In this document: in pieces, positions 41,625-44,682 of the stretch | Layout of the letters: each line of letters begins with the position of its first letter | How positions within the stretch are numbered: the first letter of the stretch is position 1 | From: Kineosporia succinea | GTDB lineage: Bacteria; Actinomycetota; Actinomycetes; Actinomycetales; Kineosporiaceae | Assembly (NCBI RefSeq): GCF_030811555.1 | Contig: NZ_JAUSQZ010000001.1 | Span: 6,197,241 to 6,261,240 of the forward strand | Length of the DNA stretch: 64,000 bases | Reading direction: 5' to 3' | The notes under the pieces: model-generated | What the model was told of the DNA's origin: nothing | Databases searched by the model: none | Seen by the model: only the letters and a program-made list of their open reading frames with translations | Position numbers and translations under genes: made by a program

Positions 41625-42454
41625 GCGTCAACGGTTCCGTGAAGAAGATCCTCGAGGTCGACGGCCTCACCAAGACCTATCCGGGCGCCTCGCGCCCGGC
41701 GGCCGCCGACGTCGGGTTCAGCATGCTCGAGGGCACGGCCCTGGGGCTGGTCGGGGAGTCCGGCTCGGGCAAGTCGACGACCGCCCGGATGATCGCCGGC
41801 CTGGAGAAGCCCGACGCCGGCTGGGTGCTGCTGGGCGGCAAGCAGATCGACGGGGTCTCGCGGCGGGCGATGCGGCAGGTGCGGCGGGACATGCAGGTCG
41901 TGTTCCAGGACCCGTACTCGTCGCTGAACCCGCGCATGAACGTCGAGCAGCTCGTCGGGGAGGGCCTGCTCGTGCACGGCATCCTGCCCGACCGGGCCGC
42001 GCGCCGCGCCGAGGTCGAAAGACTGCTCGGCCTGGTCGGTCTCGGCCACGCCGACCTGGGGGCCTACCCGCGCTCGTTCTCCGGCGGGCAGCGTCAGCGC
42101 CTGGCGATCGCCCGGGCCCTGGCCGTGCGCCCGCGTCTGCTGATCTGTGACGAGCCGGTCTCCTCGCTCGACGTCTCGGTGCAGGCGCAGGTGCTGAACC
42201 TGCTGCGCGACCTGCAGGCCGAACTCGGCCTGTCGATCCTGTTCATCGCCCACGACCTGGCCGTGGTCCGCTACCTGTGCGACCAGGTCGTCGTGATGAG
42301 TGAGGGCCGCGTGGTCGAGCAGGGCAGCCGGGAGCAGATCTACGGCGACCCCCAGCACGAGTACACCCGGGACCTGCTCGCCGCGGTCCCGGTTCCCGAT
42401 CCCGCGCACTCCCGGCGGGTCCGTTCCGATTCTGTCGTGGAGGAGAAGCAATGA
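41621..42454 (+). CDS. ABC transporter ATPase, DppF/OppF type
   Basis: 277 residues. Walker A GESGSGKSTTARM, signature FSGGQRQR, Walker B LLICDEPVSSLDV, H-loop AHDLAVVRY, and DPQHEYTRDLLAAVP at the end. GTG start overlaps the previous stop; its stop overlaps the hydantoinase ATG, coupling import to the enzyme. Confidence 0.93.
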   Translation: MSVNGSVKKILEVDGLTKTYPGASRPAAADVGFSMLEGTALGLVGESGSGKSTTARMIAGLEKPDAGWVLLGGKQIDGVSRRAMRQVRRDMQVVFQDPYSSLNPRMNVEQLVGEGLLVHGILPDRAARRAEVERLLGLVGLGHADLGAYPRSFSGGQRQRLAIARALAVRPRLLICDEPVSSLDVSVQAQVLNLLRDLQAELGLSILFIAHDLAVVRYLCDQVVVMSEGRVVEQGSREQIYGDPQHEYTRDLLAAVPVPDPAHSRRVRSDSVVEEKQ

Positions 42455-43821
42455 GCGACCTGGTGGTCCGTGGCGGCACCCTGGTGCAGCCGGACTGGTC
42501 CGGCCCGGCCGACCTGCACCTGGCCGACGGCGTGGTCAGGGCCGTGGTGGCCCCCGGCACCCCGCTGCCCGCCGGGGCCGAGGTCCTCGACGCCACCGGC
42601 AGACTGGTGATGCCCGGGGGAGTGGACCCGCACTGTCACGTCGGTTTCACCAGCGGCGGCTACACCTCGCTCGACGGGTACGCCGAGTGCACCACCGCCG
42701 CCGTCCTGGGCGGCACCACCACGATCGTCGACTTCGCCATCCCGCAGCCGGGCCAGCGGCCGGTCGACGTGGCCGCCGCCCAGCGGGCCAAGGTGCCGCA
42801 GGGCCTGTGCGACGCGGCCGTCCACGCCTCCGTCGTGGAGTGGGACGACACCACGGCCGACCAGCTGCGCTCCCTGGTGGCCGACGGCCTGGCGACGGTG
42901 AAGATGTTCACCACCTACCGTGGCGAGAGCATGGCCAGCGCCGACACCATCCTGAAGACCATGCAGGTGCTGAAGGAGTCGGGCGGCATGGTGGTGATCC
43001 ACTGCGAGGCCAACCCGATCATCGAGGAGGATCAGCGCCGGGCCGCCGAGCGCGGCGAGATCGACGCCGCGCACATGGCCGGCACCCGCTCGGAACTGGC
43101 CGAGACCGCCGCGGTCGCCGAGGTCCTCGCGATCGCCGAGACCCTCGACGCCCCGGTCTACTTCGTGCACCAGTCCACGCCCGCCGCGGTCGAGCTGGTC
43201 GCCGCCGCCCGCCGCCGCGGGCTCCGTGCGTACACCGAGTCCGTCGCCCACCACCTCGTGCTCGACGACTCGCTCTACGACGGCCCGAACCCCGAGCGCT
43301 GGGTCTGCTGCCCGCCGCTGCGTGACCGGGCGACGGTCGAGGCCCTGGGCGGCTACCTGGCCAACGGTGAGATCACCACGGTCGCCTCCGACCACTGCTG
43401 CTACGACACCGCGCAGAAGGTCTCGCACCGGCACGACGTGCGGCACATGCCCAACGGCCTGCCCGGCGTCCAGACCCGCCTGCCCGTCATCTTCTCGACC
43501 TACGTCGCCACCGGCCGGATCACGCCGTCACGCTTCGTCGAGCTCACCGCCGCGAACCCGGCCCGCACCAACGGGATCTACCCGCGCAAGGGCACCCTGG
43601 CCCCGGGCAGCGACGCCGACCTGGTGCTGTGGGACCCCTCGGCCCGCTGGACGATCACGGCCGGCGACCTGGCCCAGGCCACGGACTACACGCCGTACGA
43701 GGGCATCGAGGTCACCGGCCGTCCCGAGACCGTCGTGGTCGGCGGGCGCGTGATCGCCGGCGGCGGGCGGATCCTGGACGCGACCCCGCGGGGCCGCTTC
43801 CTGCCGGCCTCCCTGGCCTGA
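42451..43821 (+). CDS. Dihydropyrimidinase / D-hydantoinase family amidohydrolase
   Basis: 456 residues. The metal set is complete: His61/His63 (HCH), carbamylated Lys151 (VKMFTTY), His184 (VVIHCEA), His240 (YFVHQS), Asp314 (VASDHCCY). It matches the cyclic-amidohydrolase family of dihydropyrimidinase, D-hydantoinase and phenylhydantoinase. It would open a hydantoin or dihydropyrimidine ring to an N-carbamoyl amino acid. Last gene of the rightward operon; an N-carbamoylase is not seen nearby. Confidence 0.92.
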   Translation: MSDLVVRGGTLVQPDWSGPADLHLADGVVRAVVAPGTPLPAGAEVLDATGRLVMPGGVDPHCHVGFTSGGYTSLDGYAECTTAAVLGGTTTIVDFAIPQPGQRPVDVAAAQRAKVPQGLCDAAVHASVVEWDDTTADQLRSLVADGLATVKMFTTYRGESMASADTILKTMQVLKESGGMVVIHCEANPIIEEDQRRAAERGEIDAAHMAGTRSELAETAAVAEVLAIAETLDAPVYFVHQSTPAAVELVAAARRRGLRAYTESVAHHLVLDDSLYDGPNPERWVCCPPLRDRATVEALGGYLANGEITTVASDHCCYDTAQKVSHRHDVRHMPNGLPGVQTRLPVIFSTYVATGRITPSRFVELTAANPARTNGIYPRKGTLAPGSDADLVLWDPSARWTITAGDLAQATDYTPYEGIEVTGRPETVVVGGRVIAGGGRILDATPRGRFLPASLA

Positions 43822-43824
43822 GCC

Positions 43825-44574
43825 TCAGACCTGGGTGGCGCCGCCGTCCACGTACAGGGCCGAGCCGGTCATGAAGCTGCTCTGGTCGCCGGCCAGGAAC
43901 AGCACCGTGGCGGCGATCTCCTCGGGCCGGGCGAGGCGTCCCAGCGGGACGGCGGCGGCCATGCCCTCCTTGAACGCCGCGGCCTGGTCGGCGGGGATGA
44001 GCCCGTTCAGGCCGGGGGTCTGCGTCGCGCCGGGCATCACGGCGTTGACCCGGATGCCCCGCCCCTTGAGCTCGTTCGCCCAGGTGCGGGTGAACGAGCG
44101 CTGGGCGGCCTTGGTCGCCGAGTACAGGCCGAACGCGGGGGCCCCGATGTCGGCGTTGGCCGAGCCGTTCAGCACGATCGAGGCGCCGTCGTTGAGCACC
44201 GGAAGGGCCTTCTGCACGGTGAAATAGGTTCCGCGCACGTTGATGTCGAAGTGCTGGTCGAACTGCGCCCCGGTGCTCGCCTCGAGGGTGACGAACTCGC
44301 CGATCGAGGCGTTGGCGAACAGCACGTCCAGTCCCTGCCCCCGGGCCCGGATCGCGTCGTAGAGCCGGTCGAGGTCGTCGAGATCCGAGATGTCGGCGAC
44401 CACCGCGGTCGCCGAGCCGGCCCCGATGACCTCGACCGCCTCGTCGAGTGTGCCCTGACGGCGGCCGGTGATGAAGACGTGGGCCCCCTCGGCGGCCATC
44501 CGCACCGCGGCCGCCCGTCCGATGCCCGTGCCCCCGCCGGTGACCAGGGCGGTCTTGCCTTCGAGCTGTCCCAT
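43825..44574 (-). CDS. Short-chain dehydrogenase/reductase
   Basis: 249 residues, classical SDR: TGGGTGIG near 13-20, NAS instead of NNAG (LFANASIGE), catalytic Ser in LNGSANAD and YSATK. Arg pair in TGRRQGT suggests NADP(H). Two ATGs (44580, 44574); GGGAG is 2 bases from the first and 8 from the second, so 44574 is preferred. Divergent from a TetR gene; the gap contains three matching operators. Confidence 0.93.
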   Translation of the reverse strand: MGQLEGKTALVTGGGTGIGRAAAVRMAAEGAHVFITGRRQGTLDEAVEVIGAGSATAVVADISDLDDLDRLYDAIRARGQGLDVLFANASIGEFVTLEASTGAQFDQHFDINVRGTYFTVQKALPVLNDGASIVLNGSANADIGAPAFGLYSATKAAQRSFTRTWANELKGRGIRVNAVMPGATQTPGLNGLIPADQAAAFKEGMAAAVPLGRLARPEEIAATVLFLAGDQSSFMTGSALYVDGGATQV

Positions 44575-44600
44575 GTCCATCGCTCCCACACGCGATCCAT

Positions 44601-44622
44601 TTCCGCATCGATTGATGCGGAA
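44601..44622. promoter_or_regulatory. TetR-type operator, copy 1 of 3
   Basis: TTCCGCATC-GATT-GATGCGGAA, a perfect 9-bp inverted repeat. It lies 27 bases before the SDR start and fits the shared form TTCYGCA-N8-TGCRGAA. Confidence 0.75.
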
Positions 44623-44637
44623 GTAGGACCGTAACAC

Positions 44638-44659
44638 TTCTGCAGCGATCGATGCAGAA
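44638..44659. promoter_or_regulatory. TetR-type operator, copy 2 of 3
   Basis: TTCTGCA-N8-TGCAGAA, perfect arms and the same 22-bp length as copy 1. Starts 37 bases after copy 1. Confidence 0.75.
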
Positions 44660-44660
44660 C

Positions 44661-44682
44661 TTCCGCATCGGTCACTGCAGAA
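44661..44682. promoter_or_regulatory. TetR-type operator, copy 3 of 3
   Basis: TTCCGCA-N8-TGCAGAA, a hybrid of the arms of copies 1 and 2, 18 bases before the TetR start codon. It starts 23 bases after copy 2, about two helical turns, so adjacent dimers would lie on nearly the same face. Confidence 0.7.

Follow-up and report, generated by a model that had tools for sequence, protein, structure and literature searches.

Three putative TetR operators between divergent SDR and tetR genes of Kineosporia succinea: a proposed enlargement of a two-site switch

Introduction

Regulators of the TetR family with two or three binding sites in a divergent promoter region are already known, as the available text of two articles documents for the Tn10 tetR/tetA pair (PMC3511530) and for SAV576 from Streptomyces avermitilis (PMC3742746). 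According to the first of these, TetR-type regulators usually control their neighbour when the intergenic region is shorter than 200 bp (PMC3511530). The Tn10 genes diverge from operators lying between them, as in the locus presented here, but the operators are two and 15 bp long, the target is an efflux gene and the inducer is tetracycline (PMC3511530). SAV576 is likened to our regulator by its published description: it is a TetR protein for which three sites were footprinted within a bidirectional promoter region, and it represses itself and its neighbour (PMC3742746). By contrast with our locus, the same description gives a 15-bp motif of another sequence, a P450/reductase target, and a third site at the start codon of the regulator's own gene (PMC3742746).

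The best solved relative with a named function is CifR of Pseudomonas aeruginosa (6nsn, 6nsm, 6nsr; 4.6e-59), although 2i10, an unnamed TetR regulator, scores above it. CifR is also divergent from its target and is described as being released from DNA by certain epoxides (PMC8244358). It differs in having the cif operon as target, where our locus has three operators and an SDR (short-chain dehydrogenase/reductase) gene, and in its recognition helix, which reads RPPS instead of STTS. A study of CifR by Ballok in 2012 reportedly states two binding sites in its title. Two further TetR repressors, NemR of E. coli (PMC5297802) and AltR of Pantoea ananatis (PMC13178969), are described in the available text as de-repressed through a conserved cysteine; likened on that description, they nevertheless have other operator sequences, and NemR is encoded in an operon with its target. 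CssR (PMC8176726) and a TetR protein of A. avenae (PMC4204640) were considered as close parallels and set aside as unlike, judging from the portions of these articles available. No paper on the 22-bp operator presented below was found in literal or subject searches, whose scope excluded most subscription journals, and the seven papers containing one core string of the motif included none on this TetR family, as judged by title and opening of the abstract.

Results

Three operator-like sites between an SDR gene and a tetR gene

The window, that is, the whole 64,000-nucleotide stretch of the K. succinea contig that was analysed, had been given a first-pass annotation claiming three copies of the palindrome TTCYGCA-N8-TGCRGAA between divergent SDR and TetR genes. 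Exact matches of 22 bp do lie at all three places. The features of the locus are as follows.

43825–44580, minus strand: SDR gene, 251 aa, start at 44580 (adh_short_C2, 1.9e-56); predicted target
44601–44622, no strand: candidate operator 1 (TTCCGCATCGATTGATGCGGAA), spanning the predicted SDR start point and 5' leader; equivalent to operator 1 of relatives
44628–44636, minus strand: predicted extended -10 of the SDR promoter (TGTTACGGT, minus strand), hexamer 44628–44633, 4 bp from operator 2
44638–44659, no strand: candidate operator 2 (TTCTGCAGCGATCGATGCAGAA), on the upstream side of the SDR -10; highest score of the three
44661–44682, no strand: candidate operator 3 (TTCCGCATCGGTCACTGCAGAA), on the upstream side of the tetR -10; an extra site compared with most relatives; lowest score
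44688–44693, plus strand: predicted tetR -10 (TAGCAT), separated by 5 bp from operator 3 and by 6 bp from the start codon
44700–45332, plus strand: TetR-family regulator gene, 210 aa, with recognition-helix residue Thr52 and a single cysteine, Cys114

The intergenic stretch measures 119 bp, with centre-to-centre spacings of 37 bp between operators 1 and 2 and 23 bp between operators 2 and 3. Transcription is predicted to begin near 44621 for the SDR gene and at or beside 44700 for tetR. The regulator carries an N-terminal TetR_N helix-turn-helix domain (PF00440, 36.3 bits, cut-off 24) and a C-terminal TetR_C_13 domain (PF16925, 34.9, cut-off 27), and the family profile matches 2i10 and CifR over nearly the full length. 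On the other side of the locus, an amidohydrolase gene (Amidohydro_1, 42451–43821), with an ABC transporter ATPase gene upstream of it, stops 3 bases short of the convergent SDR gene, so that antisense effects are possible.

At the G+C content of the window (0.72), about 0.0003 exact matches would be expected in 64 kb. With up to two mismatches allowed, a single further match was found in the window (49239); in 100 dinucleotide shuffles the same scan found 0.18 on average and 2 at most. The first-pass annotation had proposed a genome search for the motif, and this search returned no fourth exact match: in the 8.07-Mb genome (8,065,021 bases, one contig), the exact pattern occurs at these three places only. 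Two sites have a single mismatch, both within open reading frames. Up to two mismatches are found at 74 places, compared with 111 for a reversed control pattern, and this count therefore gives no sign of a wider regulon. Copy 3 indeed combines the arms of copies 1 and 2, as had been described: 10 of 11 bases of its left half agree with the corresponding half of copy 1, and its right half, once reverse-complemented, shares 10 of 11 bases with the left half of copy 2. Since the six half-sites of the window already agree pairwise at 7 to 10 of 11 bases, this resemblance requires no recombination.

The sites go with the regulator

A set of 135 relative loci was assembled from three sources: 26 loci from 98 related genomes, including the window itself (locus L007); 80 loci from named genome contigs, being the best 80 of 572; and 29 loci from genomes of the class, 394 in number, 106 of which had a match (29 of the 30 loci given were used, the remaining one being the window). 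A 22-bp matrix was built from these best 80 of 572 named loci, leaving the window and the class loci outside the build. In its own 80 loci it finds 145 sites, against 0.0–0.2 per shuffled replicate at thresholds of 9–13, and it gives operators 1, 2 and 3 of the window scores of 27.3, 34.0 and 25.0, respectively. In the 29 class loci it finds 45 sites, distributed over 26 loci, and 0.0 after shuffling. The best 80 of 572 named loci comprise 66 with two sites, 7 with one, 2 with three and 5 with none, so that at least one site is present in 75 of them, and in 123 of the 135 loci overall. A further 22 loci were held out: 21 plasmid loci, mostly proteobacterial, and L144, which was the one extra orthologue recovered from genomes of the family (13) and the order (396) and has one detected site. 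A matrix that ignores base 8 located 26 sites in 19 of these 22 loci, against 0.2 in shuffled sequence, with several proteobacterial sites scoring below 15. Four of the plasmid loci (L147, L156, L157, L162) are alpha- or gammaproteobacterial, with a relative of the regulator divergent from an annotated SDR or 3-oxoacyl-ACP reductase.

Sites are kept where the divergent gene is replaced by one for an alpha/beta hydrolase (L034), a SnoaL-like protein (L046), another type of SDR (L051), an aldo/keto reductase (L104) or an MFS protein (L009). In L044, L048 and L062 no SDR match lies divergently upstream, and a single site persists beside tetR; L011 and L102 are counter-cases, their single detected site being on the SDR side. 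On this sequence comparison, which establishes the identity of the sites, their conservation, their geometry and their link to the regulator gene, the sites go with tetR rather than with the SDR gene.

The regulator and the site also covary. Among 199 residues and 11 half-site bases, the highest mutual information links residue 52, which by TetR-family structures sits in the recognition helix, with base 8. Arg or Lys at residue 52 goes with C at base 8, and other residues with T, G or A, a rule that agrees in 114 of 117 loci (eight long or distant rows left out). In the 22 held-out loci, eight Arg/Lys proteins have C (one is tied, and L150 and L153 have the same identical site), eight proteins with other residues lack a C majority, and three proteins with the helix VERPA are mixed. 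Pooled agreement reaches 133 of 135 loci, with the tie counted as C and five rows left out. After correction for kinship the association is not significant, with about three independent switches on the tree; as residue 52 changed only about three times, kinship alone could generate the tie to base 8. Four paralogues of the regulator in the same genome (L020, L026, L029, L031; 37–57% identical) each have operator-like sites of their own, and possibly make up a group of repressors free of cross-reaction.

These comparisons bear on whether the sites might belong to some other DNA-binding protein acting on the locus. The assignment to TetR is drawn from sequence, but the sites accompany tetR across lineages and targets, proteobacterial plasmids included, and their base 8 tracks the recognition helix, so that we regard such a protein as very improbable.

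Usual promoter layout and layout of the window

In relatives the sites stand in a fixed relation to predicted promoters, which are here consensus matches. Of the 102 loci with at least two sites, 71 have a first spacing of 36 or 37 bp. On the tetR side, scanning for TANNNT in the 101 loci with sites from L033 onward put the distance from the last operator to the start of the -10 box at 4 bp in 65 loci, at 3 or 5 bp in 17 and at a greater value in 3, and found no box within 22 bp in 16. On the opposite strand, 62 of the 87 loci with at least two sites have a TANNNT starting 4 bp from operator 2. The -10 of the divergent gene is of the extended type (TGnTANNNT) in 68 of the 69 loci that combine the usual spacing with a box (71 share that spacing). 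The first in-frame start codon follows 6 or 7 nt after the tetR box in 79 of the 90 loci with a box, which points to a probably leaderless tetR transcript. The two divergent -10 boxes are 29–31 bp apart in all 70 two-site loci with both boxes (out of 97 two-site loci), a uniformity partly due to the offset filter, which admitted 27–34 bp. As predicted from these matches, the usual layout is one in which a single operator between back-to-back promoters serves both, while a second covers the start point of the divergent gene. The claim that the operators serve both divergent genes holds at this level, as a prediction from a recurring site, fixed -10 offsets and persistence beside tetR.

This interlocked two-operator arrangement, with operators 36–37 bp and boxes about 30 bp apart, is not that of the window, which has three operators and boxes 54 bp apart. 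The boxes are 53–54 bp apart in the window, in L009 and in the four-site L008, a distance which implies that each promoter would have an operator of its own. We propose that the window layout is a derived form of the two-operator layout. An additional operator between the promoters is found in the window, L008, L009 and L034. L008, the closest relative, has a fourth operator-like site about 155 bases upstream of tetR, further toward the SDR gene. L034 departs from the others in its spacings (three sites, 33 and 24 bp) and its -10 offset of 1, and its box distance falls outside the measured set. Another three-site locus, L066 of Mycolicibacterium austroafricanum, sits on a different branch of the tree, with sites at positions -126, -92 and -59 relative to the start of the tetR match, spacings of 34 and 33 bp and boxes 63 bp apart. 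The window, L008, L034 and L009 group together, with the two-site L033 beside them (81/58) or, in the other tree, among them; L012, L028 and L096 were left out of the protein set and thus of that other tree. From this grouping the three-site layout likely arose once, with weak clade support (81/58). Abutting operator pairs matching the strict pattern occur in the window only among the 394 class genomes, a set in which the genomes of L008 (G004) and L009 (G002) are unlisted. A separate subgroup (L101, L104, L109, L110, L111) has spacings of 30–31 bp, an aldo/keto reductase neighbour having been seen in L104, and a degenerate third site, visible by eye and below threshold, at the tetR start.

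Perhaps no more than one or two of the sites matter, operator 3 being a duplicate that has decayed and lost its effect. Operator 3 has the lowest score in the window, and only 7 of its 11 pairs are palindromic, but with the relatives' matrix it reaches 25.0, far above the threshold of 10, a third site recurs at the same place in L008, L009 and L034, and the one-site loci L044, L048 and L062 keep precisely the tetR-side site (L011 and L102 keep the SDR-side one). Decay thus appears a poor explanation. At the other end of the array, operator 1 could double as a hairpin in the leader of the SDR mRNA: a 9-bp stem is predicted, and palindromy in 70 relative loci is higher for operator 1 (9.3 of 11) than for operator 2 (8.3 of 11). 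The fold z-score is just -1.8, operators are expected to be palindromic in any case, and operator 2 is additionally constrained by the promoters, all of which makes a role as RNA improbable, even more so than decay of operator 3.

Spacing and strength of the operators

From the presence of three sites within 82 bp, the first-pass annotation had concluded that binding is cooperative and control of both genes graded. Contacts between three dimers, giving a steep or stepped response, would suit the crowding of the sites and the near abutment of operators 2 and 3, and there is a precedent in CalR3, whose binding to site I is described as dependent on site II (PMC5712553). Against this, no 10.5-bp periodicity is present among the 31 loci with a first spacing other than 36 or 37 bp (R 0.06), and the usual spacing follows from promoter geometry. 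In the window, spacings of 37 and 23 bp correspond to about 3.5 and 2.2 helical turns, from which we infer that neighbouring dimers would not lie on one face of the DNA. A cooperative module is accordingly an unlikely reading, if less so than the two alternatives just discussed.

For grading, there is a weak hint in the predicted operator strengths. Among the main three operators, the one beside tetR is the weakest by score in the window, L008 and L009, though not in L034, and a lowest-scoring operator 3 would fit weak autorepression combined with tight repression of the SDR gene. In two-site loci, operator 1 outscores operator 2 in 48 of 68 and the reverse holds in 17; among the relatives with Thr, Ala or Ser at residue 52, this bias is absent (25 loci, p 0.73).

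A conserved cysteine and the predicted role of the SDR

Cys114, the sole cysteine of the window regulator, is kept in all 132 aligned sequences, the window included and L012, L028 and L096 left out, as well as in all 22 held-out sequences. It aligns with the GCL cysteine in the ligand domain of CifR, the one described repressor against which its position was compared. By this homology, thiol sensing through Cys114 is likely. In the available descriptions, Cys106 of NemR is needed for the response to reactive chlorine (PMC5297802) and Cys100 of AltR for that to thiosulfinate (PMC13178969); a contrary case is CssR, a TetR regulator of stress genes whose cysteines 17 and 58 are described as having no redox role (PMC8176726). 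Among solved structures, the SDR is closest to alcohol dehydrogenases such as 4bms and 6ihi, which makes reduction of a reactive carbonyl a plausible activity.

Discussion

The explanation that best joins these observations, to which we assign a probability of about 0.8, is that the three palindromes are operators of the adjacent TetR repressor, which would repress the divergent SDR gene and itself, that one operator unit has been added, and that de-repression proceeds through Cys114. The predicted SDR -10 would be flanked by operator 2, over its upstream (-35) side, and operator 1, over its start point, while operator 3 would cover the upstream side of the tetR promoter. Insertion of a further operator unit of 23–24 bp between the promoters would have removed their overlap and left each with its own site. 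An electrophile or oxidant would probably modify Cys114 and thereby lift repression, and the SDR, a predicted ketone or aldehyde reductase, may help to clear that compound. The switch of the window would then be a two-site actinobacterial switch enlarged by one part, and mostly an ordinary on/off device.

A broader proposal is more tentative, and we consider it somewhat less probable than its negation: that the 23–24-bp unit freed two interlocked promoters, and that the family is a series of repressors with a single sensor cysteine whose choice of DNA depends largely on residue 52. If true, the single shared operator of the ancestor would have restricted polymerase to either one of the promoters at any given time, whereas the version in the window would set the levels of tetR and of its target separately; Arg or Lys at residue 52 would read C at base 8, and Thr, Ala, Ser or Pro would read T or G.

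The locus offers a testable case of a divergent repressor switch that may have gained one operator, with two-, three- and four-site relatives available for comparison. The regulator group is widespread and likely senses reactive electrophiles, and for this group the residue 52 rule would provide a simple proposal for DNA recognition.
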